DNA of 64,000 nucleotides, from assembly GCA_009777235.1 (NCBI GenBank), contig WRMH01000001.1:62001-126000 (forward strand). Reading direction: 5' to 3'. Below the pieces are notes generated by a model. That model worked only from the letters and a program-made list of their open reading frames with translations. It searched no databases and had not been told where the DNA came from. The stretch comes from Oscillospiraceae bacterium (lineage in GTDB: Bacteria; Bacillota; Clostridia; Oscillospirales; Oscillospiraceae). Positions within the stretch are counted from its first letter, which is position 1, and every line of letters begins with the position of its first letter. Positions 1-14,450 of this stretch are shown piece by piece. The position numbers were made by a program, and so were the translations under genes.

Positions 1-430
1 AATTCCAGTGAGGGGAATAAAGAATCTCAAACCTCCCCATCAGGGACTCGGTAAGCCCTTTTTGTAGCAGAAGCGAAGATGACCCGGTGAGAACGACTTT
101 TAATGCGGAAAGCAATCTGCCGTCTTCATCCCAAAGGAGCTTGACAATCGACGACCAGCCCTTGATTTTTTGGATTTCATCAATAACAAGAATCGCTTCG
201 CGGGACTTGGCGAGAGCGCGGGCTTGCTCCCATTCGTTTCGCAGCCATTCGGCAGAGTTAAGGCTGGGGTCGTCCGCGCTGACAAAATGCGTTTGCATAT
301 CAAGCTCTTTAAGCGCTTGCAAAACAGCGGTCGTCTTCCCCGTTTGCCTCGGTCCGACCACAATTTGAATAAACCGGCGCGGTTCGTTTAGTCTTTCGGT
401 AAGCTGCGCGACCAATTTTCGTTTGAACAT
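1..430 (-). CDS. AAA-family ATP-binding protein (DUF4143-type), C-terminus off window
   Basis: The reading frame starts at an ATG at 430 behind a GGAGGGAGG ribosome binding site and stays open to base 1, so only the first 143 or so residues are present. A Walker A motif (GPRQTGKTT, about residue 27) and a Walker B motif (LVIDEIQK, about residue 90) are followed by a sensor-like LTGSSSLLL stretch. This arrangement matches the AAA domain of the widespread ATPases that carry DUF4143 at the C-terminus, but that half lies outside the window. The role of the family is poorly known; such genes are often mobile and occur in many copies per genome. No partner gene is next to it; a tRNA fragment and palindromes lie upstream. 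Confidence 0.8.
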   Translation of the reverse strand, partial: MFKRKLVAQLTERLNEPRRFIQIVVGPRQTGKTTAVLQALKELDMQTHFVSADDPSLNSAEWLRNEWEQARALAKSREAILVIDEIQKIKGWSSIVKLLWDEDGRLLSALKVVLTGSSSLLLQKGLTESLMGRFEILYSPHWN

Positions 431-760
431 GAGAACCCTCCCTCCAATCACCTTTACATTTTACTCAGTACGTTTTACTGTTTACTCATTATAAAGGTTG
501 AATGTGAAATTGTCAAGCCGTTTCTCTGTCCTCGTACTGGATTAAGCGTTGCCCGGAATCGCATCGGAATAGAACTTCCCATCCAATACACCCGCCCCCC
601 GGCTAAGGAAGCTAAGGAAAAAACCGAAAAACCCCGCACAGTTCCAGAATACCGGGTAGCACATGGTATGACATGAGCCATTCGATAAATCCAGTAACGG
701 CAGGGCTTTCCGACTATTGCAGACTACTATGGGTTACTACAGAAAACGGGGTGCTTCCTA

Positions 761-804
761 CTCCTAAGGAATAGTTGTGCGTTCGATTCGCGCCGGGGGT
801 GCCA
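761..804 (+). other. 3' half of a tRNA (Arg-CCT-like), probable integration scar
   Basis: From 761 the sequence reads as an anticodon loop ctcctaa, a 3' anticodon strand, a short variable loop, a fully paired T arm (gtgcg 777-781, ttcgatt 782-788, cgcgc 789-793, one G-T pair), a 3' acceptor strand cgggggt, a discriminator G and an encoded CCA (802-804). The matching 5' half (D arm and a gcccccg-like acceptor strand) is not found upstream, so it cannot be a working tRNA. Tyrosine recombinases commonly use the 3' half of tRNA genes as attachment sites, so an attL/attR remnant is the likeliest reading; this is inference. Confidence 0.5.
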
Positions 805-893
805 ACTTTCCCATAAACGCACCAAGTGGTGCGTTTATGGGAAAGTTGCGCTAAAACAGAACTGCAAGGTTCAGTTTTAGCGCAGTTTATTTT
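803..893 (+). terminator. Two adjacent long hairpins, terminator-like
   Basis: Directly after the tRNA remnant is a perfect 22-bp inverted repeat with a 2-nt centre (about 803-848, arms reading caactttcccat... and its complement). It is followed by a second hairpin (about 847-882) with arms gcgctaaaacagaac and gttcagttttagcgc, one mismatch, then cagtttatttt. The second could stop transcription on either strand and lies just beyond the end of the minus-strand operon at 940. The rest of 431-760 shows no gene I can support. Confidence 0.5.
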
Positions 894-939
894 CCGGGCA
901 TCGGCTTTGCGGTATAGACTTTCGGGTTTGCCTTTGTTT

Positions 940-2004
940 TCACCATTTCATGCAAATCCGGTTTGTACCGTCATATGTGTATGTGATGTCGCTGATTAGT
1001 CCTCGGATTATATCGGCTTCCATTCCGGCCGCTTGCGTAACATCTCGCGCCTCGCCCCCGTACGTGACGGTAAGCTCAAATGATTCTTGATTGTCCGGGA
1101 AGCTGAAATATATTCCGACCAAATCTTTTTTGTCAATGAGATTTACCGTGAGCTCTTCCGAGAGCAGCCCCGCTTTGTTGCTGTTCGCCCTTGACAAGGC
1201 GTTTGCGACGCAGAAGTTCAGCAATTCGTTGGTAAGCCCGATGAAGTCAAAGTTTTCGGAGTTTATCTCATGCCGGAAACTCTTGATACGGTGAATGAAC
1301 GCTTTTGTCTTTTCCCGGTTTGGCGCGTCAAAGATGACCTCCGGCGGGCCTTCCTCATAGATGCCGCCCTCGTCCATGTAAAATATCCGATTAGACACGT
1401 TTTTGGCAAATTCCATTTCATGGGTAACGATTACCATCGTCATGCCATCCCTTGCCAGACGCCTTATGACTGCCGTCACCTCTCCCACCATCGTCGGGTC
1501 GAGCGCGCTGGTCGGTTCGTCAAAAAGCATTATGTCCGGCTTCATCGAAAGACACCGCGCAATCGCCACCCTTTGCTTCTGACCGCCGGAAAGCTCATCC
1601 GGGTAGTTATCGGCTTTTTCCGCGAGTCCGACTGTTTTCAAGAGCTCACGCGCCGTCTTTTCCGCCTCGTCTCTTTGCATACCCAGCAGCCTTGTCTGCC
1701 CGATGCACAGATTATCCAATACGCTCATATGGGCAAAGAGATTGAAGTTTTGAAATACCATACCCATTTTTTTGCGAACTTCGTTGATGTTGGTTTTCTT
1801 GTCGTTGAGAACCTTCCCGTCAAATTTTATAGTCCCGCCCGTGGGCTGCTCCAACAGATTCAGGCAGCGCAAAAATGTGCTTTTCCCGCATCCTGACGGC
1901 CCTATTATAGTGATAACCTCGCCTTTTTCTATGGTCGCGCTAACTCCTTTTAGCACCTCAAAACTGCCGTAACTTTTTTTCAAGTCCTGTACAATAATCA
2001 TCAT
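940..2004 (-). CDS. Polar amino-acid ABC transporter ATPase with a C-terminal RsbW-like extension
   Basis: Residues 1-245 are a complete GlnQ/ArtP-class ABC ATPase: Walker [10 protein letters not shown] (about 35-43), Q-loop, signature [13 protein letters not shown] (about 139) and Walker [14 protein letters not shown]. It would energise import of polar amino acids by the fused permease encoded just upstream, whose stop overlaps this start by 4 bases. Family members end near residue 245; this one runs on for about 110 residues. The tail has the pattern [11 protein letters not shown]...[11 protein letters not shown]...[16 protein letters not shown], which resembles the weak HATPase fold of the 196-aa protein in the same operon (compare LVAEEMLSLTA and a similar final strand). 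The fold assignment of the tail is inference; the ATPase call is firm. Confidence 0.88.
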
Positions 2005-4253
2005 TTGTCCCTCCTCAAACGCTTGTTAGTCTTGCGGTTTATGAGGTTAAGCAGATAAATCATGATTGACGCCGTAATCAGGTATATCAACGCCACCATG
2101 ATCAGCGGGAAGAAGGCGTCGTATGTGCGGCTGCGTATGATGTCGCCGGCCTTTGTCAAGTCTACGACGGCGATATAACCAACGACTGCGGTCATCTTGA
2201 ACATGGAAATAAATTCGGACATATATACCGGAAACGCCACGCGAACCGCTTGGGGGAACGTCACCGTAAAGAATGCCCCGACCTTAGAAAAGCCCATGCT
2301 CCGCGCCGCCTCGACTTGCCCTTTGTCCACCGTCAAAATCGCGGCCCGTATAATCTCGCCTATGAACGCGGCGCCGTTTGCCCCAAACGCGATAACGGCA
2401 ACTGTCACGCCTCCGATGGTGGTTTTCGCGAAAATCACATAAAACGTGATCATCAGCAATACCACTATGGGCGTGCCTCGCAGAACGGTGATATATATAT
2501 TGCCAAAGACGTTGAGTATACGGTTTTTGCTCATTCTAAGGCCGCAGACGCCAAATCCGAGCAGCGTCGCGAGAGCGAAAGATAAAATCGTGATGACCAT
2601 GCTCACCTGTAAGCCTTCAAGGATCATTTTCCATCGGTTTTCATGGATAAGGTTTCGTTCAAAGCTGGCTTTTAAGCTCTGCCAAAAGCCTGTGCTTTCC
2701 GCCGACCCGTCAGCTGCCGCGCCGTCAAGCACGGCACTTTCCTTGCGTACTGTGACCAAAATCCCTTCCCTGAAAACCGCGTCTGAAAAATCAACCGCCT
2801 GCTTGCGCTCATCGGTGACAGCAATAATCGCACCGGCAAAATCAATCCTACCCGATTGAACGGCAGGAATGATTCCGGCAAAGTCCATCAGTTGGATTTC
2901 AAGCTCCATATCCATGTACTCGGCAAAACGGTAGCCTAACTCAATCTCAAACCCCACAGGCTTTCCGTCTTGAATATACCCAAAAACGTCGTTGTTGCCT
3001 GTGTTAGCGAATACGAGCTTTCCGTTATTGCCGATGTTTGGAAAATCGGGCATGGGAGGCGCGTCAAAGGTATTTATCCAACGTTCCGTCATATCATCAT
3101 AAGTGCCGTCCGCATGAATCTCCCGCAAAAAATCGTTGAAAGATTCCCTAAGCTCCGAGTTATTTTTTCCGAATACAAAAGCCTGGTCAACTTCATGAAT
3201 GGCAGGGAAAAGGGGCATAAGGTCAGGATATATTACTTTGAACCTTTCGGACAAAACGCGGCCCGTAAAGGTGGCGTCAACCTTTCCTTGCCGAAGAGCC
3301 AGTACGGTTTCCGGGCTTGTGTTGAAATGCACTTGTATTGCATCGGGGATATTTTCATTGAGCACTGTGTCCCATATAGAGCCTGTTATTATGGCGAAGG
3401 CTTTCCCCGCGAAATCCTCGGCGCGGAAAACATTCGCGCTCTCATTTTTCTTGGTAATCAGTACCGCGCCGCCCGAACAGTACGGCTCGGAAAAACTGAC
3501 ACTCTCGCCCCTCTCTTTGTTAATGATGAACAGACCCGCCGCAAAATCGGCTTTTCCGGAATTTACGTAAGGAATCAACGCATCCCACGCCATGAGTTGG
3601 ATGTCTATATCCATGTCCATATATTCGGCAAATCGCACAGCAATCTCGATGTCAAAACCCTCCGCCCGATTGTCCACTATATAGCCAAACGGCTCCATCT
3701 CTCCGGCACTGGCAAAAGTGAGGATTCCGTTATTCCCACTGAGTACAATCTCCGGCATAGGCGGAGAGTTTGCGGTATCAAGCCAACGCTTTGTCATGTC
3801 GGCATGAACGCCGTTTTCTTTAATTTCCCGCAAAAAGTCGTTGAACTTCAACCGCAGAGTGTCATTTTCTCCGTTAAAGACAACACCGAAATCATACTGT
3901 GCGAAAGACGGATATATGATTTCCATTTCGGGATTCAATAAAACCCATTTTCGCGCCATTGGTTCATCCAATATCAAGGCGTCAGCTCTGCCATTTTTCA
4001 CCATTTCCATTGCTTCATGCTCATAGATGCAATGAACCGGTATAAAGGAGCCGACATTTTCCTCAAACATTATGTCGAAAGCCTCTCCGGTGGCAAACGC
4101 AATGCGCTTCCCTATGAAATCCTCGGCTGCATACGTGCCGGACTCGGCAGGGGACACGCTTACTTCGGGCTCTTGCAAATTATCCTCTCCGAAACACCCT
4201 GTGAGTGTCAGCAAAAGCAGGGGAACAAGCAAAAACAATCTTCTTTTTTTCAC
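2001..4253 (-). CDS. Lipoprotein fusion: tandem SBP_bac_3 lobes plus amino-acid ABC permease
   Basis: A 750-aa fusion starting at GTG 4253 behind GAGGAAAG. It begins with a lipoprotein signal peptide with lipobox LTGC (about residues 17-20). Residues about 40-165 look like the second lobe of a family-3 solute-binding protein, about 170-275 a first lobe, 275-395 a second lobe, and 400-510 another first lobe, so the lobes appear in circularly shifted order. After a linker, residues about 535-745 form a HisM/GlnP-type inner-membrane permease with several membrane segments and the EAA-like loop [20 protein letters not shown]. Together with the ATPase downstream this makes a complete importer tethered to the membrane. 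The ligand is not predictable beyond a polar amino acid or similar small molecule. Confidence 0.88.
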
Positions 4254-4319
4254 TTAGTCTTTCCTCATTTATACCATGTAGTAAGCCGCCGCCCAAAGAG
4301 GCGGCAGCTTGCGGTTTTG

Positions 4320-4910
4320 TTAAAATTCCATTATAACGATCATTTCCGCCTTTTTATTCCGCGCGCCGATGATTACTTCTTTTGCGAGAGTTTCTATTAT
4401 GGATTTTTCTAATCCGTCCCATTCTTCTTTGTCTGTTTTAGTTGACGCTAAAGATGCCGCGTTTAATTCATCACGGTATGTTGTCAGCGAAAAATACGGC
4501 ATTAGCCCTATGTTCTCGTAGACCATGCGGTCGTAATATGGGATGTAAATTCGTTCAAACTCGCCGCTGTCCGTAAGCAGGCTTTCAAAAATGCCGCTGA
4601 TTTTGCCAAAAAATCCTTGAGTCGCTTTGTTTTTCCCACTCGTAGAAAGAGACAGCATTTTCTCCTTTTTGCTTTGATTCACAACTGTTTCTGCTGTAAG
4701 ACAGAGTGTGAAACGGTTTTCGTCGCTTTCTACATAAAACTCGTATTTTAAGTCGTCGAACAGCCGTGCAGTCAAAGAAAGCATCTCCTCGGCAACCAGA
4801 CGGAGTCTGCTCGCGGACACTGTGGATAATTTGCAAAACTGACCGATTCTGTCCATTTCCGTGAGGATTGTTTCTATTTTTTGCTTTTCGGTGTAAATAT
4901 CAGATTTCAT
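4320..4910 (-). CDS. RsbW-like (HATPase fold) regulatory protein, divergent
   Basis: A 196-aa soluble protein between a STAS gene and the ABC fusion. It has no easily named catalytic motif, but RLRLVAEEMLSLTARL near residues 36-52 sits where the N-box helix of anti-sigma-type ATPases would be. An alternating strand region (YEFYVESDENRFTLCL) and the final strand EVIIGARNKKAEMIVIMEF also fit a GHKL core. The canonical N-box Asn and the DxGxG motif are not evident, so ATP binding or kinase activity is doubtful. Position next to a STAS antagonist suggests a partner-switching role. The tail of the operon's ABC ATPase looks like a second copy of the same fold. Function is inferred from context only. 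Confidence 0.55.
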   Translation of the reverse strand: MKSDIYTEKQKIETILTEMDRIGQFCKLSTVSASRLRLVAEEMLSLTARLFDDLKYEFYVESDENRFTLCLTAETVVNQSKKEKMLSLSTSGKNKATQGFFGKISGIFESLLTDSGEFERIYIPYYDRMVYENIGLMPYFSLTTYRDELNAASLASTKTDKEEWDGLEKSIIETLAKEVIIGARNKKAEMIVIMEF

Positions 4911-5020
4911 TTTTATAACCTGTCCTTTCTATCCGCTTATGACATCAACGACCAATGACAGACCGTAAAAATGATGCAAAGCTTTGTTTTCTCGAAGCAA
5001 GAGCCGCTTGCTGTCAAATA

Positions 5021-5320
5021 TTATACGATTGTTAAAATACCGGAAAAGCCCGTGATTTCAAAAACTTCCATCACCTCCGGCAAGATGTTTTTGAGCGTCA
5101 TGGTTTTGCCGTTTACTTTGACATTTTTCTCGCCCGACAACAGAACGCGCAAGCCTGCCGAGGAAACGTAATCCACCGCCGCAAAATCCAGTTCGATTTT
5201 CTCGGACGATGAAATAGTTTCCGTCAGTATTTCCTGCAGCTTAGGTGATGTGGCGGTATCTAACCGTCCGGTCAGGGTCAAGACGCAGATGTCTCCGTTT
5301 TGTGCTTTATCGATTTCCAT
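5021..5320 (-). CDS. STAS-domain anti-sigma-factor-antagonist-like protein
   Basis: The 99 residues are a single STAS domain of SpoIIAA/RsbV type: an N-terminal strand GDICVLTLTGRLDTATSP and the phospho-acceptor loop DYVSSAGLRVLL near residues 49-60, with the serine pair where RsbW-type kinases phosphorylate. Family members switch partners between an anti-sigma factor and sigma depending on phosphorylation. No sigma factor is nearby; the gene is first in an operon with a divergent RsbW-like protein and an amino-acid ABC importer. A good promoter lies 60-85 bases upstream. Confidence 0.85.
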   Translation of the reverse strand: MEIDKAQNGDICVLTLTGRLDTATSPKLQEILTETISSSEKIELDFAAVDYVSSAGLRVLLSGEKNVKVNGKTMTLKNILPEVMEVFEITGFSGILTIV

Positions 5321-5378
5321 AGCTTTCTTCTCTTTCTCTTTTTTATTTCCAAGGCTTTGTTATCCCTGTTTTTACGCA

Positions 5379-5407
5379 ATTGTATCACATGGCAAGGCAC
5401 TGGTCAA
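5379..5407 (-). promoter_or_regulatory. Predicted sigma-A promoter of the STAS/ABC operon
   Basis: On the minus strand TTGACC (5402-5407) is followed by a 17-bp spacer and TACAAT (5379-5384). Transcription would start near 5372, giving a leader of roughly 50 bases before the STAS start codon. Confidence 0.6.
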
Positions 5408-5560
5408 TAGGCGTCATTATGCTTGGAAATTTTTATGCTGCGTGGCCTTTTTGCAAGATATACAACCTCTATGCGAATCAAATTCCGAAATCTGTATTTG
5501 AACAAATGAATAAATAATATACGTATACAGATACGATGACCCCGTTAGAAACGCCTTTGC

Positions 5561-6925
5561 CTATGGTGTGAGTGCGCGGTAAACCGCCGTTGTAACATTA
5601 CTGTCGGTGTCATTAAATATATACGTCGTCCCGTCTTGTATCTTTATCACTAAAAACGGCGGGTTTTGAGGAAGCATACAGACCGTTACAGCACCATAGC
5701 CTCTCGCGTTAAAATTTCCCTTGTATAAATTCTCAAAGTTGCTTCCGTTTGTTTTAGTCATGACAGGCAGTTCAAATATAAGCTCAACAGAGTCAATCTC
5801 GCCTAACGGAAAACTATACGCGATTCTTGTGTGCTCCACAGTAAACATTGACCCGTCAATGACAAGATTTACAGGCGTTCTTTCCTCTGTCAGCATCCAC
5901 AAGCCGAGAAAGGGCATAGCGACGATAATCAATGCCGTGAAAAACATAAGCACTTTACCTGCGGGTTTGGCGACATTCATAGACATATTCATGCCGATGC
6001 GGTCGTTGACAAGGAATTGTTTGTCGTTAGGATTATAATAAATTAACCCCAAAAACCAGTATTCATCCTCGTCGGCATATACATCGCCCGTATCCGAAGC
6101 GGTGAGCTTTTGCTGTGCGGCGCGTGTGGCAAACTCGGTTTGAAGTGAAATAATTATTATTATAACGGAATATACGAGCGTAGCAATCAAAATGCCCGTT
6201 TCGTTAACCGCAAACGCCCATACCGCAAGGTTGTATGCCGCCGTAATCCACGAGGCGATAATCCAGAACTTACCCCAGTTGTACCGGCGAACGCGGGTCA
6301 GCGCCATGGTGAGCGTCAGGTCCTCGTTAAAAACTTCGGCGCGTATGTGGTAAATGATATAATATAGCCCCCAAAACAATGCAACCGTACCCGCAAATGT
6401 CAGATATATAGGCATAAGCATAGCGTTTGCTTTGCCGCCGACAAGCAAAACATAGAGAACAGGCACAAGTGAGACGGCGAGCGCAAGTAAAAACCAGATG
6501 TTGTTAATCTTGTATACGGGGATTCCTGCGAGCTTAACTTCTGCAAGCCTCTGTCCCGCTACAGAGCTGCGCCATCCTCTTTCATTTTTGAGTGTCATAA
6601 GCCTGCCTCGATGTACGGCAAACACAATCGGATGCGCAACAACAAGCAGTACCATCCACGTCATATACCAAGTCATTGCCACGCCAAAGGAGCTCATAAA
6701 AAACGGCGGCACGAGCAATGGAATGAGCAAAAGTGTGGCAATGCCAAGCCATTTCTTGAACGAATCGCAAATGGAAGTAACGTCAGGGTCGGTTTGCGCC
6801 TCGACAGGCAAAGTTGTTCCGATGATAATATTCTTTTTCGGTTTTATCGTGTTTCTCATCATAATGTAAATAAGCGGTAATATCGGCGCAAAACTCGCCG
6901 CCATAATAATATTAAGTAGCATCAT
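5561..6925 (-). CDS. DUF5808-containing multi-pass membrane protein
   Basis: I start the gene at ATG 6925, behind GGAGG and overlapping the GntR gene by 14 bases; an earlier in-frame ATG at 6982 lacks this site. The 454-aa product has about ten hydrophobic segments, then a soluble loop DEYWFLGLIYYNPNDKQF (about residue 290) that is the hallmark of DUF5808, two more membrane segments, and a C-terminal PH-like beta region (VNLVIDGSMFTVEHTRIAYS...). GntR/YtrA regulators are commonly paired with such proteins in Firmicutes, where the pair has been linked to envelope stress, but the molecular role is unknown. Confidence 0.8.
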   Translation of the reverse strand: MMLLNIIMAASFAPILPLIYIMMRNTIKPKKNIIIGTTLPVEAQTDPDVTSICDSFKKWLGIATLLLIPLLVPPFFMSSFGVAMTWYMTWMVLLVVAHPIVFAVHRGRLMTLKNERGWRSSVAGQRLAEVKLAGIPVYKINNIWFLLALAVSLVPVLYVLLVGGKANAMLMPIYLTFAGTVALFWGLYYIIYHIRAEVFNEDLTLTMALTRVRRYNWGKFWIIASWITAAYNLAVWAFAVNETGILIATLVYSVIIIIISLQTEFATRAAQQKLTASDTGDVYADEDEYWFLGLIYYNPNDKQFLVNDRIGMNMSMNVAKPAGKVLMFFTALIIVAMPFLGLWMLTEERTPVNLVIDGSMFTVEHTRIAYSFPLGEIDSVELIFELPVMTKTNGSNFENLYKGNFNARGYGAVTVCMLPQNPPFLVIKIQDGTTYIFNDTDSNVTTAVYRALTP

Positions 6926-7298
6926 TGTTATTTTCCTCCTCACATTTATATGCTTTGATACAGATGTCAAGCCACTCGTCACTTGACATGCCTGAGAGCT
7001 TTGCCGACGCGGCAGGCAACCGCAGCTCGCCGAGTACCTTATCCGCTGTGGTTACGCTTTTGCCCCCCGCAATCACCGTGCCGCCCCTGCGGTCTGTTGA
7101 GATATGCCCCTCGCTTTTCAGGAATTGATAAGCCTTGTTGACGGTCATCACGTTGACCCCTGTTTCGATTGCTAAAGCGCGTACTGTCGGCAGTTTTTCG
7201 CCGACACTGAGCTTTCCGCTTGCTATGCCTAATACAATTTGGTCGTGTATTTGCCGATAAATCGGCGTTTCGATTGTAAAATCTAACTGCAGCAACAT
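6912..7298 (-). CDS. GntR-family transcriptional regulator, YtrA subfamily
   Basis: This 128-aa protein has an N-terminal winged helix (PIYRQIHDQIVLGIASGKL, then VRALAIETGVNVMTVNKAYQ at about 43-62) and a short C-terminal helical tail, the size and layout of YtrA-type GntR repressors. It starts at ATG 7298 after AAAGGAGGGG. It is translationally coupled to the DUF5808 membrane protein downstream. A 17-bp inverted repeat sits inside the spacer of its own promoter, so autorepression is likely. Confidence 0.88.
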   Translation of the reverse strand: MLLQLDFTIETPIYRQIHDQIVLGIASGKLSVGEKLPTVRALAIETGVNVMTVNKAYQFLKSEGHISTDRRGGTVIAGGKSVTTADKVLGELRLPAASAKLSGMSSDEWLDICIKAYKCEEENNNDAT

Positions 7299-8294: not shown

Positions 8295-9728
8295 TCACCG
8301 GCGCGTGTTGTTGCCGCCGTTTGCGGCCTCCGATGAGGCAATATACTCGCCCAAAATCTGCTTGGCGATCACGGCGATAGGCACGGCAAGGAACATTCCG
8401 GCTATCCCAAAGTAAGCGCCGCCAATTACAACCGCTATGATTACCAAAATCGGATTGATTTTTAGCGAGGATTTCATAATTCGAGGTTCAATGTAATTGC
8501 CGTCAAGCTGCTGGAAAATAAGCAGGCAAACCGCAACTTGGATTGCCGTGGAAAGGTCGAGCGTCAGCAAAGCGAGTACGCTTATAAGTATAGACGCGAA
8601 AATTGATCCGATATACGGTATGAAGTTAAACACGCCTGCCAGCAAGCCGAGCAGGACGGCATAGGGTACGCCAAATATAAGAAGTATACAGGTGACGGAA
8701 GCAAAGTTTATGACCGCGTCTAAACCCTTGCTTGCAATGAAAGTGAGCAAGACCTCATTTACTTGCCTGAGATATTTTACCACGCCCTCTCTTTTGCGCT
8801 GCGTCTTAAACACGGCATTGTTCAGCCTTGTAAAATACTCGGCTATTTTACTTCTGTCCATAAGCAAATAGAGCGATATAACAAGCCCCATAATAACGCT
8901 GAATATGCCTCCGGCAACGCCCATCAAGCTCCTTGCCGCCTGTTCAATACCGGCAGGGTTCAAGACGGCGTTCATGATTTCGCCGGAACCGTCGCGGATA
9001 AACTCATCAATATTAAAGCCCGCCAATACAGAGTCTTCGGGCAGCCTCTCAAAATAGGCAAGTATGGAAGAAATATACCCCGGTATGTTCATGACAAGAT
9101 CAACGATGTTGTTGAAAATCATTGGTATCACAACGCTTGAAAGCACAATGATCACACAAAGCAGCAATATGAATACCGTAATTGTGCTAAGTCCGCGAGC
9201 GTGTTTCAATACAAATTTTAGTTTCAGTTTCTTATAGAGATTTTCTATTGCCCGGTGCGGAATATAGAGAAAATAAGCAAAAAGTATGCCGAAAAGCAGC
9301 GGTCCGAGAACGCCGATAAAGCCGAAAATTCCGGATGCGATTTGAGCCATGTTATCCATCGTCTTATAGATAACTATGAGTATTATGCCGACAATCAGGA
9401 AAGGAAACCATTTCGCCTTGTCAAATTTGCGCCTGTCAACTATTATGCCGCCGGACTGGGCGGTATCGGCACTGGGCGCGTCGGCGACAGTGGCGGCGGT
9501 CTCGGTGTGAGCATTTGCGGCATCGGTAAGCGCGCCGGTGACGGTGGTAAGTTCATCGGCGGCAGGCGTGTCTCGGTATGAGGCGGTCTCAGTCCGGCGA
9601 GTGTCGGCGGTGCGAGCTTCGGTGCTCCCGTCGTTGGCAGTGGGGGCGGTCTCGGTGCGGCCGCCGCCAAATCTCTTTAGCAACGCCCTAAAGAGTGCCT
9701 TTATTTTAGATATAATGCGTCTAAACAA
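8295..9728 (-). CDS. AI-2E family transporter (PerM/YtvI-like) with Ala/Thr-rich N-terminal insert
   Basis: The 477-aa product has a short amphipathic start, then about 75 residues of low-complexity Ala/Thr/Asp sequence (about 20-97), then the eight or so membrane segments and conserved core of the AI-2E transporter family (FNFIPYIGSIFASILISVLAL and the following Q-L-DGNYIEPRIM motif near residue 405). The family includes quorum-signal exporters and Na+/H+ antiporters, so the substrate cannot be told. The start is TTG 9728 preceded by GAGGTGA, which itself is the end of a decayed sugar-permease gene. The insert is unusual for the family, which normally begins close to the first membrane segment. 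Confidence 0.85.
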   Translation of the reverse strand: MFRRIISKIKALFRALLKRFGGGRTETAPTANDGSTEARTADTRRTETASYRDTPAADELTTVTGALTDAANAHTETAATVADAPSADTAQSGGIIVDRRKFDKAKWFPFLIVGIILIVIYKTMDNMAQIASGIFGFIGVLGPLLFGILFAYFLYIPHRAIENLYKKLKLKFVLKHARGLSTITVFILLLCVIIVLSSVVIPMIFNNIVDLVMNIPGYISSILAYFERLPEDSVLAGFNIDEFIRDGSGEIMNAVLNPAGIEQAARSLMGVAGGIFSVIMGLVISLYLLMDRSKIAEYFTRLNNAVFKTQRKREGVVKYLRQVNEVLLTFIASKGLDAVINFASVTCILLIFGVPYAVLLGLLAGVFNFIPYIGSIFASILISVLALLTLDLSTAIQVAVCLLIFQQLDGNYIEPRIMKSSLKINPILVIIAVVIGGAYFGIAGMFLAVPIAVIAKQILGEYIASSEAANGGNNTRR

Positions 9729-9734
9729 ATCAAC

Positions 9735-9893
9735 TCACCTCTTTGCTAAATATTTGCGCATATCCAAGGCCACGGCCACGAGTATCAGCCCGCCTGTTAT
9801 AATTAGGGTATTGGCGTGCCGCCAAACGTAACCGTACCCTTGACGATTCCGTTTAGCATAAGCGATGCGGCCAAGGTCACGATAAAAGGATTT
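9735..9893 (-). pseudogene. Remnant of a ribose/galactose-type ABC permease C-terminus
   Basis: On the minus strand one frame reads NPFIVTLAASLMLNGIVKGT and on to TFGGTPI, then is broken by a stop near 9808; a shifted frame continues as LIITGGLILVAVALDMRKYL and ends at TGA 9735-9737. Joined, these look like pieces of the C-terminal part of RbsC/MglC-family sugar permeases with at least one frameshift and probably an internal deletion. No other sugar-transporter genes remain nearby. Confidence 0.6.
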
Positions 9894-9941
9894 TATCAAA
9901 CTTTGGCAAAAAAGCAAGTGTTTTCGCATTATTCGTAAAAC

Positions 9942-9970
9942 TTTACAAAAACCACAATATATGCTACTAT
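9942..9970 (+). promoter_or_regulatory. Predicted promoter for the activase/NodB-fold gene pair
   Basis: TTTACA (9942-9947), 17-bp spacer, TACTAT (9965-9970), about 85 bases before the activase start at 10055. Confidence 0.5.
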
Positions 9971-10054
9971 ATCCAAAGTAAACAACACATTATGCAAGAC
10001 GGCATCATGATTTTGGCGTATTCGCGCTTGTATTTCTTGCGGAATGAAGGTTCG

Positions 10055-10906
10055 ATGGATGGTTTTATCTCCAATATAGACAGGCTCTGCACGGCAAAAG
10101 GACCGGGAATCCGATCGGCTGTAATGGCTGTCGGCTGTCCCATGAAATGCTTATGGTGCAGCCATCCCGAGCTTATCGGCGACGCGGCCAAGTTTCTATA
10201 CCACCCCAGAAGATGCGTGGGATGCGGTAAATGCGTCGCGCAATCCGGCGGAGGCACTATCTGCTACTATGACGCTTATGAAAAGTATGGAGAAATCATT
10301 TCCGAAAATGAACTCGCGAGCAGACTTTTGACCGATAAAGATTATTATGATACGTCGGGCGGCGGCGTCACATACTCGGGAGGAGACGCGGCCATGCAAG
10401 CCGAATTTTTCTACGACGTTACGCGGCTGCTTAAAAAATCGCAAATCCATGTCGCGCTCGAAACAGCCGGATACTTCCCTTGGGAGAAGCTGGCTCCGCT
10501 CGTTTTTGCGGTTGATCTTGTGTTATATGATATTAAGACGCTAAACAGGGGGCTTCACAGGAGATATACCGGCGTGGATAATCAGCTCATTTTAGAAAAT
10601 GCCTTGCGAATCGCGGACATGGGCAAGGACATGACAGTCCGAATGATACTTATACCCGGAATCAACGACAGTGAGGACGAAATAACGGGGCGGGTGAAGT
10701 TTGTTAAAACACTCGGCAAACACGTCAAACTTGAGATTATAAAATATCAAAAACTCGATCCCGCCAAATATGCGGAAATAGGCATGATAGAAATGATGGA
10801 AGGCACAGATGAGTGTTCCGACGCCACCGCCGACCTCGCCGCCCATAGCGCAAGACAGCTTGGGATAGAAGTAGTTGACAGGAGCATATATGAAGCGATA
10901 CTTTAA
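10055..10906 (+). CDS. Glycyl-radical enzyme activating protein (radical SAM, PflA-like)
   Basis: About 283 aa from ATG 10055; an upstream in-frame ATG at 9992 would add 21 non-conserved residues. The SAM-cluster motif C-x3-C-x2-C is at residues 28-35 (GCPMKCLWC), preceded by KGPGIRSAVMAVGC typical of PFL-activase-like proteins. A single extra ferredoxin-like cluster region (RRCVGCGKCV) follows, then the SGGG.TYSGGDA motif of the radical SAM barrel. Such enzymes make a glycyl radical on a partner enzyme (pyruvate formate-lyase, diol dehydratase and others). No partner is in the window, so its target is unknown. Its stop overlaps the start of the next gene by 17 bases, suggesting translational coupling. 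Confidence 0.85.
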   Translation: MDGFISNIDRLCTAKGPGIRSAVMAVGCPMKCLWCSHPELIGDAAKFLYHPRRCVGCGKCVAQSGGGTICYYDAYEKYGEIISENELASRLLTDKDYYDTSGGGVTYSGGDAAMQAEFFYDVTRLLKKSQIHVALETAGYFPWEKLAPLVFAVDLVLYDIKTLNRGLHRRYTGVDNQLILENALRIADMGKDMTVRMILIPGINDSEDEITGRVKFVKTLGKHVKLEIIKYQKLDPAKYAEIGMIEMMEGTDECSDATADLAAHSARQLGIEVVDRSIYEAIL

Positions 10907-12587
10907 ATTATTGGGTTTTTTGCTGCTTATGGCCGTTATCTTTGCTATTGGGGCATACGATAAAGCGCCGGATTTTAACGAGGGCTTTATTCCGATACAA
11001 CCAACCCCCACATTCCCGTCAGAGAGGGAATCGCCAAATCCCGGCAATGTTGACCCGGTGACAAATAGCCTTGGGCTTCCGGCCGTTATCGAATATGGCC
11101 ATGCCGAAGTGATTTTACACCACAATGACCCTTTTCACGCATACATCCGTTACCCGCAGGCTGGCAACGATACAGATACTTTCATACATGATTGGGCGAG
11201 CGAATTATATGACGACATGGCTATATATTACAACACCGGAGTAGAGATGAGCCCGTCCGAGTTTGGCGAAATAAACGTGCATTTTGACTCTTATCTGATA
11301 GATAACAGATATGCGGGCATACTGCAATTTGGCGAATATAGTTTCATACCGACGGAAATACCGCAGGAAATCATTAAGACATTCAATATTGATCTGACAG
11401 AATTTGAATTTCTTGAGCCCGGAGATATTATTGATTTGGAATATCCCGATCATGTTCTGGGTGTACTCCGGCAGCAGCTGTGTATGCTCGATATAAGGAC
11501 GGAGGGCTACCTTGACTTTATGAATGAGGCTTGGTTTTCATACTTGGTCATCACCCATGACGGTATTCTTGTGATTTTGCCAAAATCCGAATTTTTGCCG
11601 GACAACTTTGAGACAATGGCAGTTACCTTGCCTTACGAAGATTTGGGCGCATCCCTTCTCATAAGAAAACTTGCGCCGCTGCCCGAAATGCCGACGCCGA
11701 TACCTCCGCCGACGCCAACCCCGCCGCCAATACCGGCAGCGACTCCTGGCTATGGTGACGGAGATGGCGATGGCAGCGGAGACGGAGACGGCGGCGGAGA
11801 CGGCAGTGCTGATGGCGGCACGGGCACAGATTTGATCGGCGGCGGTGACAGCGGCGCAGACGGGAGCGGCGACAACGCTTCGTCTGCGGGCGACGGCGAC
11901 GGTGATACAGATGCGGCCGGCGGGGATTTGGACGGCCAAAACCCGGTTGTCGCAGAACCTCAGAGCGGCCCGATAGACCCGAATAAACCGATTATCGCGC
12001 TCTCACTAAACGACGGGCCGGGCATCTATACGGAGGAGTTTGTGAATCTTCTCGAGCAGTATGGAGTCCGCGCCACATTTTGCGTAGCGGGAAATCTCAC
12101 GGGTACGCAAACAGCGGCACTCACACGCGCCGTTGAAGCGGGGTCGGAGGTTGTCGGGATTTCATGGGATCATAAAAATCTGGCAAAACTAAGTGACCGG
12201 GACGTAAGGGCGCAGATAGAAAAAACAAGAGACGCTATAGAGTCCGTCACCGGCACGGCTGTTCCGATGTTTCGGCCTCCTTACGGCAACGTGAGCGACA
12301 CAATGAAAGATGTAGCTACAGAGATGGGTTTGGTAATGATCAAATGGAGCGTTGACCCCGAGGACTGGAAGTACAAGGATTCCGACCATATATATAACGA
12401 GGTCATGCGAGAGGTCAAGGACAAGGCTATCATTATCAGTCAGGCGATCTACAAAACTACCTTTGACGCATATGAGCGCATTATCCCGGAGCTTCTCTTG
12501 CAAGGTTATCAAATAGTGACCGTTTCGGAGCTGTTGAAGCTGACGGAGGGTGATTTGACTCCCGGACAGATTTACTACAACGGATAG
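10890..12587 (+). CDS. PdaC-like secreted polysaccharide deacetylase-fold protein, active site degenerate
   Basis: I start at ATG 10890 (AGGAG six bases upstream), giving 565 aa. Order: N-terminal signal/membrane segment (about 5-22); a DUF4163/DUF3298 (RsiV-like) region about 65-235; a Pro/Thr linker; a 60-residue Asp/Gly/Ser-rich linker; and a NodB fold from about 365 to the end. This order resembles Bacillus PdaC. Key residues differ: the T-F-D-D-G motif reads LSLNDGPG (first Asp to Asn), the first His of H-x3-H is missing (GISWDHKNLAKLS), and the later L-H-D motif reads IISQAI. RPPYG and DPEDWKY remain. It is therefore probably exported but not a normal metal-dependent deacetylase. Confidence 0.82.
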   Translation: MKRYFKLLGFLLLMAVIFAIGAYDKAPDFNEGFIPIQPTPTFPSERESPNPGNVDPVTNSLGLPAVIEYGHAEVILHHNDPFHAYIRYPQAGNDTDTFIHDWASELYDDMAIYYNTGVEMSPSEFGEINVHFDSYLIDNRYAGILQFGEYSFIPTEIPQEIIKTFNIDLTEFEFLEPGDIIDLEYPDHVLGVLRQQLCMLDIRTEGYLDFMNEAWFSYLVITHDGILVILPKSEFLPDNFETMAVTLPYEDLGASLLIRKLAPLPEMPTPIPPPTPTPPPIPAATPGYGDGDGDGSGDGDGGGDGSADGGTGTDLIGGGDSGADGSGDNASSAGDGDGDTDAAGGDLDGQNPVVAEPQSGPIDPNKPIIALSLNDGPGIYTEEFVNLLEQYGVRATFCVAGNLTGTQTAALTRAVEAGSEVVGISWDHKNLAKLSDRDVRAQIEKTRDAIESVTGTAVPMFRPPYGNVSDTMKDVATEMGLVMIKWSVDPEDWKYKDSDHIYNEVMREVKDKAIIISQAIYKTTFDAYERIIPELLLQGYQIVTVSELLKLTEGDLTPGQIYYNG

Positions 12588-12635
12588 TCATATATATTCG
12601 CTACGATTTTCGCTGCGGCTTGGACGCACGACTTG

Positions 12636-12678
12636 GGCATATCCGAACGGGAACTAAGAGCGTCCGTTCAGATATGCC
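12636..12678. terminator. Bidirectional hairpin between convergent genes
   Basis: Arms ggcatatccgaacgg (12636-12650) and ccgttcagatatgcc (12664-12678) pair with one mismatch around a 13-nt loop, between the NodB-fold gene and the convergent hydrogenase operon. Confidence 0.6.
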
Positions 12679-12716
12679 TCAATTTCTTCAATCGCAATGA
12701 TGATATGTTATTCGTT

Positions 12717-14450
12717 TTATAGGCCGCGTTTTACATATTTTGTGTGCAAAATCTCGTGAGCCTTGTGGCTTCCCGGTGAGCCGAAAAACTCCTCGTAGAG
12801 CATTTTTATATCAGGATGTTCATGCGACTTGCGGACAGGCAGGTCTTTGTCCGCTCCGTATATCGCTTTGGAACGAAGACTCACAATGTCAACATTGTTT
12901 CGGACGCTGTCCGGCAAAAATGGCTGACCGCCCCCGTTTATACAACCGCCCGGGCACGCCATGATCTCAATGAAGTGACACTCCACCTCGCCGTCCCTGA
13001 CCTTTTCGAGCAGAGCTTTTGCGTTTGCAAGGCCGGAAGCGACGGCGACCTTTACCTCTATGCCGCCGACATTGTAGGTCGCGTACCTGATCGCCTCGGG
13101 ACCGCGAACCTCCGTAAAATCAATCACATTAAAGCTCTTGTCAAGCCAACTGCTGGCTGTGCGAAGCGCGGCTTCCATAACGCCGCCCGTCGCGCCAAAA
13201 ATCTGACCGGCTCCCGAGCCCGATTCAAACGGGTTATCAAACGCTTCGTCGGCAAGCCCGGCAAAATCTATTCCGGCGGTTTTGATCATACGAGCCAGCT
13301 CTCGCGTCACAATGGCGACGTCAACGTCCTGTACGCCCGCGGCGGACTGATTATCCCTTCTTGCTTCAAACTTCTTTGCCGTGCAGGGGACGACTGAAAC
13401 GACAAAAATGTCTTTGGGATCAATGCCGTGTTTTTGCGCATAATATGTTTTCAAAACAGCGCCGAACATTTGCTGAGGGGATTTGCACGAAGATAAATTG
13501 TCAACAAACTCCGGGAAATAATGCTCGCAATATTTCACCCAGCCGGGCGAGCATGATGTGATGAGCGGCAGCTTGCCGTTATTTTTGATACGCTCCAGCA
13601 GTTCATTTGCCTCTTCCATGATGGTGAGATCGGCAGTCAGGTTCATATCAAAGACCCCGTCAAAGCCAAGTCGTCTCATGGATGCGGCTATCTTGCCGGA
13701 AACACGCGAGCCTGTCGGCATACCAAAGGCTTCGCCGAGCGTAACATGAATAGACGGCGCTGCATAGGCGAAAACTTTTTTTGACGGGTCAGAGATCGCG
13801 TCCCAAACCTTTGCGGTATCGTCTTTTTCCATGAGCGCGCCTGTCGGACAAACGATTATGCACTGCCCGCAGTTTACGCACGGGGAATTCGCTACATTGT
13901 CGCCAAACGCGCATTTGATTTCGGTATCAAAGCCTCTCATGACAGGGCTTATTACGGAAATTGCCTGCACATTCGCACATGACGAAACACAGCGTCTGCA
14001 TAGGATGCATTTTGAATTGTCACGCACAAAAGAAGGCGAAGAGTCATCCGGGAGTGTCTCATTTACATTTCCCTCGAATATATCCTCGTCCACCCCATAT
14101 TCCATACAGAGCCGTTGAAGCTCACAATCACCGCTTCTCGAGCAGGAAAGACATTTTTTATTGTGATCCGAAACGATAAGCTCAAGGGTCTGTTTTCTGG
14201 ATTTCCTGAGCGCGGGTGTGTTTGTACGCGCTTCCATGCCTTCAAAAACCGGAAATACGCAAGCCGCCACAAGCGTCCTGTTGCCCTTTACTTCGGTAAG
14301 GCAGATACGGCACGCGCCTATTTCGTTGAGACCTCTCATGTAACAAAGCGTCGGTATCTGAATGTTTGCGAGTTTTGCCGCCTCCAGCACGGTAGAACCG
14401 CTTGGCACTTGGAGCGACACATTATCTATTTTTACGTTTACCATTTCCAT
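12717..14450 (-). CDS. hydA: NADH-dependent [FeFe] hydrogenase catalytic subunit
   Basis: The 577-aa protein has an N-terminal 2Fe-2S domain (Cys36, 47, 50, 64), a His/Cys 4Fe-4S motif (DHNKKCLSCSRSGDC), two 4Fe-4S motifs (CILCRRCVSSC; CVNCGQCIIVCP) and the H-cluster domain with all three signatures: TSCSPGW, VPCTAKKFE and ACPGGCINGGG. A small-subunit-like tail (LYEEFFGSPGSHKAHE) ends it. It would reduce protons or oxidise H2 with electrons from NADH and, by analogy with HydABC, ferredoxin, in the cytoplasm. It is last in an operon with HydC-, ferredoxin- and HydB-like genes, 17 bases after HydB. Start ATG 14450 follows GGAGGAG. Confidence 0.96.
   Translation of the reverse strand: MEMVNVKIDNVSLQVPSGSTVLEAAKLANIQIPTLCYMRGLNEIGACRICLTEVKGNRTLVAACVFPVFEGMEARTNTPALRKSRKQTLELIVSDHNKKCLSCSRSGDCELQRLCMEYGVDEDIFEGNVNETLPDDSSPSFVRDNSKCILCRRCVSSCANVQAISVISPVMRGFDTEIKCAFGDNVANSPCVNCGQCIIVCPTGALMEKDDTAKVWDAISDPSKKVFAYAAPSIHVTLGEAFGMPTGSRVSGKIAASMRRLGFDGVFDMNLTADLTIMEEANELLERIKNNGKLPLITSCSPGWVKYCEHYFPEFVDNLSSCKSPQQMFGAVLKTYYAQKHGIDPKDIFVVSVVPCTAKKFEARRDNQSAAGVQDVDVAIVTRELARMIKTAGIDFAGLADEAFDNPFESGSGAGQIFGATGGVMEAALRTASSWLDKSFNVIDFTEVRGPEAIRYATYNVGGIEVKVAVASGLANAKALLEKVRDGEVECHFIEIMACPGGCINGGGQPFLPDSVRNNVDIVSLRSKAIYGADKDLPVRKSHEHPDIKMLYEEFFGSPGSHKAHEILHTKYVKRGL

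Follow-up and report, generated by a model that had tools for sequence, protein, structure and literature searches.

Four consecutive minus-strand genes, running from 5320 to 940 in a 64,000-nucleotide stretch of DNA from an Oscillospiraceae bacterium (assembly GCA_009777235.1, contig WRMH01000001.1, positions 62,001-126,000; hereafter the window, whose coordinates are used unless a locus is named), encode a STAS protein, a 196-residue protein (P196), a substrate-binding/permease fusion and a GlnQ-type ATP-binding cassette (ABC) ATPase with a C-terminal tail. These genes probably form a partner-switching module whose target is an amino-acid ABC importer and not a sigma factor. This reading draws on what the computations showed: the predicted folds of the tail and P196, the loss of their catalytic residues, the co-location of STAS, kinase and PP2C genes with tail-bearing ATPases above a control, and the conservation of operons in relatives. 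The features of the four genes are as follows.

5021..5320, minus strand: STAS-only protein of 99 amino acids with the motif DYVSSAGLRVLL (Pfam STAS 7.3e-18, TIGR00377 7.6e-21)
4320..4910, minus strand: P196, predicted degenerate GHKL protein of 196 amino acids (AlphaFold2 predicted local distance difference test score, pLDDT, 79.7; top Foldseek matches UsfX, RsbW and SpoIIAB)
2001..4253, minus strand: lipoprotein-type substrate-binding/permease fusion of 750 amino acids (GTG start, lipobox-like LTGC)
about 3072-3722 and about 2730-3020, plus a further stretch, minus strand: substrate-binding domains of the fusion (Pfam; the second domain from NCBIfam GlnH)
about 2025-2546, minus strand: permease part of the fusion (BPD_transp_1)
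940..2004, minus strand: ABC ATPase open reading frame (ORF) of 354 amino acids, with a GlnQ-like domain and a C-terminal tail of about 115 amino acids
1291..2004, minus strand: GlnQ-type ABC ATPase domain (NCBIfam GlnQ 3e-89 over residues 2-240)
940..1290, minus strand: C-terminal tail of the ATPase, a predicted GHKL (anti-sigma-like) domain (AlphaFold2, Foldseek, hhalign and motif counts)

The ATPase tail and the other products of the operon

Neither Pfam nor NCBIfam gave a family for residues 243-354 of the ATPase, and searches of PDB sequences with the tail and P196 profiles found nothing significant, so that the link to known proteins is made through folds and profile comparison. The AlphaFold2 model of the tail, with a mean pLDDT of 95.2, has the order beta-alpha-alpha-beta-beta-alpha-beta-beta, and the first 20 Foldseek matches against the PDB were all anti-sigma kinases, including UsfX (E 2.8e-5), SpoIIAB/RsbW (about 1e-4) and Rv1364c, with SiaB-SiaC (6kko) at rank 21. 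In hhalign, the tail profile matched that of 27 RsbW-like kinases from related loci at 98.1% (pairwise E 1e-13), and the profile of the RsbW-like kinases in turn matched RsbW of PDB entry 6m36 at 1.2e-10. As modelled, the tail is an anti-sigma-type GHKL domain. A spurious tail was ruled out by its conservation in 35 sequences together with the pLDDT-95 model.

Compared with the RsbW/SpoIIAB serine kinases (HATPase_c_2), the tail has the fold and lacks the ATP site. The window's tail retains the N-box (EELTVN), has Tyr77 in place of the adenine Asp, and is missing the ATP lid and GGLG, which were also left unmatched when the tail profile was aligned to the kinases. Across 35 aligned tails Glu45-Glu46 is invariant (Glu46 in 35/35) and Asp15, Gly79 and Asn110 are nearly so (Gly79 in 34/35); the N-box Asn is kept in 8/35, the window's included, and the position of the adenine Asp (0/35) is aromatic (Y, W or F) in 33/35. 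In the active kinases, Glu43, Asn47, Asp77, Gly79 and GGLG are each present in 27/27, the last count being partly by construction, since the kinase seeds were chosen via a GGLGIF pattern in which Asn and Asp played no part. Because the adenine Asp is absent from all 35 tails and present in all 27 aligned kinases, the tail looks non-catalytic, and judging from these residues the usual mode of ATP binding is not expected of it. The kinase alignment holds 27 of 44 stretches and omits 4 on MATE proteins, 1 fragment, 1 sensor-kinase-like stretch and 11 others, which by eye keep Asn, Asp and GGLG; the tail alignment omits 12 stretches, 11 of them on MATE, SDF and other membrane proteins and one a second copy in locus L032. 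When used as sole query, the window's tail found matches in 11/99 related genomes, its own included, and profiles of 12 and 35 rows found matches in 33/391 genomes of the class and 20/398 genomes of the phylum, respectively. The strong matches of both profile scans were ABC ATPase frames, and the weaker ones included MATE-type and other GHKL proteins.

P196 had no match above cut-off in Pfam or NCBIfam either. In its model the elements follow the GHKL order, apart from a long insertion (pLDDT 54-66 in places), and its first nine Foldseek matches against the PDB were UsfX, RsbW and SpoIIAB entries, although modest ones (E from 9.5e-3, probability 1.00). It has an anti-sigma-like core, is about 60 residues longer than the kinases, and its profile matched that of the tail at 92.3% in hhalign. 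The fold of the RsbW/SpoIIAB serine kinases is therefore present, at this modest level, but not their N-box Asn, which is found in 0/73 family members, Met or Leu standing in its place in all 73. A MerR-like helix-turn-helix was considered for P196 and rejected in favour of the GHKL fold, as both matches were below cut-off (Pfam E 0.12, NCBIfam E 0.042). Asn94, Asp165, Glu168 and Ser170 are invariant in the 73 aligned sequences (the window's and 72 of 73 references), and since this is so despite the loss of the N-box, P196 appears to have some other function under constraint, possibly a different active or binding site. The predicted folds thus bear out an earlier sequence-only reading of the window, in which P196 and the tail had been called HATPase-fold-like; Pfam and NCBIfam are silent on both, whose best fold matches were SpoIIAB, RsbW and UsfX and not an unrelated fold.

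The STAS protein scored 74 bits against a cut-off of 53.45 for TIGR00377 and also passed the Pfam cut-off, and its STAS domain and phospho-serine motif place it among the STAS-only anti-sigma antagonists. The expected phospho-serine is Ser54 of the SSAG motif (codon 5161-5159), which we take to be the phospho-site by homology to SpoIIAA/RsbV; it is invariant in 7 aligned STAS sequences, and the corresponding serine is retained in 73/84 STAS-only ORFs of related loci. In the fusion protein, Pfam found SBP_bac_3 (2e-57, in 3 stretches) and BPD_transp_1 (1e-18). SBP_bac_3 and TIGR01726 (HEQRo-type permease) above cut-off, together with the GlnQ-like ATPase, are the marks of a PAAT-type (GlnPQ-like) importer. 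GlnQ is the best NCBIfam model for the ATPase, yet the score lies under its equivalog cut-off (298 vs 379 bits). The window's genome, in an assembly about 92% complete, holds one GlnQ-type ATPase at E<=1e-50, the tail-bearing one.

The genes are separated by 110 and 66 bases, and the fusion and ATPase ORFs overlap by 4 bases (2001-2004). Two further features flank them.

5379..5407, minus strand: promoter-like site TTGACC-17-TACAAT with an extended -10, about 59 bases upstream of STAS (consensus match)
803-848 and 847-884, no strand assigned: two adjacent hairpins directly 3' of the last gene (22-nucleotide arms, 100%; 16-nucleotide arms, 94%)

The sequence-only reading had described these genes as consecutive on one strand with the last two overlapping by 4 bases, and as encoding a STAS protein with its motif site, a lipoprotein/permease fusion and an ABC ATPase; the ORFs from 5320 to 940, the STAS matches above cut-off in Pfam and TIGR00377, and the LTGC, SBP_bac_3, BPD_transp_1 and GlnQ matches all agree with this. 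The "good promoter" it placed before them stands as a match of 10/12 consensus bases with an extended TG (-35 at 5407, -10 ending at 5379), but 20 sites of that quality occur in 7 kb against 9.4 expected, and a promoter before STAS is best called plausible from its sequence. No minus-strand terminator-like site was found in 1-7000, where 4 such sites, all on the plus strand, were found against 9.2 expected. The hairpins at 803..884 possibly mark the operon end; the first, a perfect inverted repeat of 22 nucleotides, occurs once in the genome with up to 2 mismatches allowed. An imperfect inverted repeat of 21 nucleotides (76%) lies at 4907-4974, in part of the STAS/P196 intergenic region and the start of the P196 gene.

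Switch genes in related loci and in the window's genome

A STAS, kinase, PP2C or P196 gene lay within 8 kb of 13/28 tail-bearing ATPases and of 0/20 tail-less GlnQ-type ATPases (Fisher 1.9e-4), the tail-less controls being the first 20 by E-value from 13 tail-bearing genomes, searched up to 8 kb on each side with local hidden Markov models (HMMs) that were built partly from loci within the tested set, which favours detection there. STAS genes were near 7 of the 28, kinase genes near 9 and PP2C genes near 8, and the mean flank in the control comparison was 12.9 vs 14.0 kb. A P196 gene was within 8 kb of 2/28 (the window and L023), and also in L022, which is outside the 28. The STAS gene of L023, though present, was hidden in this count, and 2/30 tail loci gave no result, namely L022, in which overlapping ORFs hid the ATPase while the switch genes were plain, and L169, at a contig end. 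Chance proximity was ruled out by the tail-less control together with the identical gene order in L086.

At the genome level, strong ATPase tails (15/391, taken at E below 1e-13) and P196 (31/391) overlapped in 7 genomes vs 1.2 expected (p=4e-5). The overlap was 6/15 (p=4e-4) without genome G367, whose P196 match is a fragment with a stop, and 5 (p=0.002) when the window's genome was left out as well. Among 99 related genomes, the tail was found in 4/6 P196 genomes vs 7/93 others (p=0.001); all these statistics ignore kinship, and genomes of one genus are not independent.

The gene order, for which the sequence-only reading had asked for conservation in relatives, recurs exactly in L086 (STAS, P196, substrate-binding/permease fusion, ATPase with tail; identity 72% for STAS, 69% for P196 and 79% for ATPase plus tail), and with insertions of STAS, kinase and PP2C on one strand in L095 (STAS, P196, STAS, kinase, PP2C, fusion, ATPase with tail), but a P196 gene is absent near most tail-bearing ATPases. 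In L090 the order is P196, a STAS-kinase fusion, PP2C, importer fusion and ATPase with tail, and in L027 it is STAS, PP2C, kinase, importer fusion and ATPase with tail. L172 holds STAS, a PP2C-kinase fusion, a symporter whose N-terminus is a weak GHKL-like match, and a single-chain importer, and in L026 a protein that starts with STAS lies directly 3' of the ATPase. Loci L087, L094 and L124 seem to be the same records as L019, L020 and L022, and L095 and L096 are on one contig. Single-chain importers of 910-1151 amino acids, joining substrate-binding, permease, ATPase and GHKL tail parts, were seen at L172:6653-9385 (+), L023:5112-8516 (-), L168:6562-9552 (+) and L170:5259-8714 (-).

P196 relatives occur in 6/99 related genomes, the window's own included, and in 31/391 genomes of the class. 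A contig scan confirmed 109, among them ones from Lachnospiraceae, Oscillospiraceae, Ruminococcus, Treponema and Synergistales, many of them labelled as from rumen or gut, and locus counts were made on 80 of them. A same-strand STAS gene lies at most 500 bases from P196 in 57/80 loci; within 8 kb, a kinase-type domain was found in 30/80, PP2C in 26/80 and at least one of STAS, kinase and PP2C in 62/80, and 6/80 loci (five arrays) hold a tail-bearing ATPase. In Synergistales, L147:9959-17742 (+) encodes P196, STAS, a lysyltransferase-like protein (LPG_synthase_C), an EamA transporter, a protein with a GHKL-like tail, PP2C and a PP2C-kinase fusion. In a Solobacterium metagenome-assembled genome (MAG), L161:2687-6589 (+) encodes a protein of 1300 amino acids with MscS channel domains and a C-terminal P196-family domain.

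Similar domains were seen on other transporters. The local HMMs labelled a GHKL domain at the C-terminus of nine MATE proteins, and of three such tails checked in Pfam two passed the HATPase_c_2 cut-off and the one from the window's genome failed. A weaker GHKL-like match was found at the N-terminus of SDF symporters (two by HMM, one more by eye), whose symporter part matched Pfam SDF at 1e-57 or better, and GHKL-like domains were also found on an EamA-type protein (L163) and on unnamed membrane-type proteins (L147, L149, L124). The labels on MATE, SDF and other membrane proteins have local HMM E-values of 8e-7 to 5e-3, and two are Pfam-confirmed. Several of the MATE and SDF proteins adjoin STAS, kinase or PP2C genes. 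The Na+/H+ exchangers encoded beside a P196 gene (L096/L097) were searched for a C-terminal GHKL domain, and none was found.

The window's genome has STAS in 3 loci, 3 matches to SpoIIE-type PP2C (two strong) and 8 to HATPase_c_2. The best HATPase_c_2 match is a protein of 881 amino acids with dCache, HAMP, SpoIIE and HATPase_c_2 domains on another contig (C3), and two further matches look like the ends of sensor histidine kinases. This receptor and the PP2C receptor of the L095 array share 59% identity over 691 aligned positions, which makes the former the natural candidate for a regulator, acting in trans, of the window's STAS protein. The STAS/RsbW pair that the sequence-only reading had seen in the operon does not hold as such, as neither GHKL protein looks catalytically competent and the best candidate kinase is on another contig. 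One gene apart from the receptor (8673-11318) in L047 (contig C3, minus strand) lies a MATE protein with a degenerate GHKL-like tail (12407-14146; local HMM only). At L048:5101-7361 (-), on contig C2, a second SpoIIE-type PP2C gene has next to it a gene that by eye encodes an ECF-like sigma factor.

Proposed switch, alternatives and precedents

We infer STAS-tail binding, STAS phosphorylation, receptor control in trans, competition by P196 and a direction of the effect, whether activation or inhibition, in the following way. The ATPase tail, a SpoIIAB/RsbW-type GHKL domain that would have lost its ATP site, could serve as a docking port for STAS. An RsbW-type kinase would phosphorylate STAS at Ser54 and a PP2C receptor would dephosphorylate it, both being encoded within the array in some relatives, and here the candidate would be the one dCache-HAMP-PP2C-kinase protein on the other contig. 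STAS in one of its forms, which by analogy would be the unphosphorylated one, might bind either the tail or P196, a putative pseudokinase that would compete for STAS or carry it. Docking of STAS may then alter ATPase dimerisation or assembly, or its rate, so that uptake would follow the receptor signal without new transcription.

Several observations weigh against this reading. No kinase or phosphatase was seen near the window's operon, whereas some relatives have both within 8 kb. The P196 profile matched the active kinases weakly (8.6% in hhalign), and its Foldseek matches were modest (E 9.5e-3). A tail-bearing ABC ATPase is absent from the stretches of 74/80 P196 loci (in L124 it is just past the edge, and visible in L022), and the Pfam-named neighbours of P196 include HD-GYP-type, cyclase, ClpA/B-type, Na+/H+ exchanger and metabolic proteins. 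Because of these 74 loci, P196 and STAS must serve further outputs. Most of the MATE and SDF examples come from loci fetched via P196 or the tail, and their nearness to STAS is thus partly selected. Finally, 15/28 tail-bearing loci, some on short contigs, have no switch gene within 8 kb. Since P196 is near few tails and these 15 loci are without switch genes, the module is a looser one, of which the four-gene unit represents one arrangement, and this is consistent with a switch that gates the importer or reports uptake.

The second of these roles is the main rival explanation, in which the importer is a sensor whose idle tail holds STAS or P196 and whose transport releases it, informing a downstream regulator, as in MalK-MalT. 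In the cited parts of the source, MalK anchors MalT at the membrane in the absence of substrate transport, an ABC ATPase being physically tied to a signalling protein and the signal flowing from transporter to regulator (PMC10427625). MalT-like LuxR genes lie in the neighbourhood of 8/12 P196 loci (L086-L097), MalT-like genes occur elsewhere in the window's genome, and P196 and STAS genes stand beside many non-transport genes, all of which would suit a sensor. We nevertheless consider this role unlikely, as the surroundings of the window showed no MalT-like gene, several relatives' arrays hold a receptor-type PP2C and an active kinase and thus have their own input, and a controlled target is the easier fit for the GHKL domains of MATE and SDF transporters. 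MalK is not known to have a GHKL domain or a STAS partner. Alternatively, the tail might be a regulatory domain for ATPase dimerisation or ligand sensing that is functionally unrelated to STAS, like the C-terminal domains of MetN, ModC and MalK. The 15 tail-bearing loci without nearby switch genes agree with this, as do the dimers of SpoIIAB/RsbW, which suit a two-fold ATPase; it is made improbable by the absence of switch genes near all 20 tail-less ATPases from 13 tail-bearing genomes, and by the predicted fold of the tail, which is specifically that of STAS-binding kinases. We give very little credence to an ordinary sigma-factor switch, in which STAS and P196 regulate a distant sigma factor and are merely co-transcribed with the importer. 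Control of sigma factors is the classical role of STAS/RsbW pairs (PMC8256260, in the parts cited), and the ECF-like sigma gene in L048 adjoins another PP2C gene. However, none of the four genes encodes a sigma factor, the ATPase itself carries a fused anti-sigma-like domain, and unrelated transporters have fusions of the same kind.

For STAS-only proteins, targets besides a known sigma factor have been described (PMC8256260, in part). The closest precedent, for a STAS protein on an ABC ATPase, is MlaB-MlaF of the E. coli MlaFEDB system, in which, in the cited parts of the report, a STAS-only protein partners an ABC ATPase and Thr52 of MlaB, the equivalent of other STAS phospho-sites, lies near the centre of the interface with MlaF; its authors propose Thr52 as a possible phospho-switch but state that no evidence of phosphorylation exists (PMC7367683). 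In contrast to the case here, MlaB binds the nucleotide-binding domain of MlaF itself, and MlaFEDB is a lipid transporter (PMC7367683, same parts). The module described here differs further in the anti-sigma-like tail on its ATPase and in the kinase and PP2C of some relatives. MlaF ends in an extension that serves dimerisation and is not known to be a GHKL domain. The RsbU/RsbV/RsbW and SpoIIE/SpoIIAA/SpoIIAB switches share the same families (STAS proteins with the SSAG serine, and RsbW-like kinases and SpoIIE-type PP2C in related loci), but their classical output is a sigma factor, whereas here there are two non-catalytic-looking GHKL members, one of them part of a transporter. SiaC is not known to be a STAS protein, nor is GlnPQ known to have a GHKL tail or STAS gene. 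The SiaABCD system of Pseudomonas aeruginosa resembles the present one as a phosphorylation pathway in which a small phosphoprotein has an enzyme, a diguanylate cyclase, as its target, and differs in that the cited parts of the reports include no transporter (PMC7647112, PMC8457831), and GlnPQ of Lactococcus, as far as the cited parts go, resembles it in its GlnQ-type ATPase (PMC8025302).

Meaning for the control of transport

Full-text searches of open-access papers listed none that reports an ABC ATPase with an anti-sigma-like domain, an importer encoded together with a STAS/kinase/PP2C set, or control of an ABC importer, a MATE or an SDF transporter by a STAS/GHKL switch. It is conceivable, and we put it forward tentatively, that the module is a general post-translational transport switch of gut Clostridia and Synergistales, with the P196 family extending also to Treponema. 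PP2C receptors and RsbW-type kinases would set the phosphorylation of STAS, and STAS would plug into degenerate GHKL docking domains on ABC importers, MATE exporters, SDF symporters and other membrane proteins (one MAG encodes an MscS-type channel fused to a P196 domain), and a single signal could thereby set several transport routes at once.

Bacterial partner switches are a textbook means of transcription control, and here a STAS/anti-sigma pair seems to have been rebuilt for the direct control of nutrient import, with a pseudokinase joined to the ABC motor. If this is true, these bacteria would have a fast, phosphorylation-based control of uptake, a concrete hypothesis would be at hand on the way in which MlaB and other STAS proteins regulate ABC ATPases, and "GHKL tail" would be a label by which switch-controlled transporters could be found in uncultured gut bacteria.

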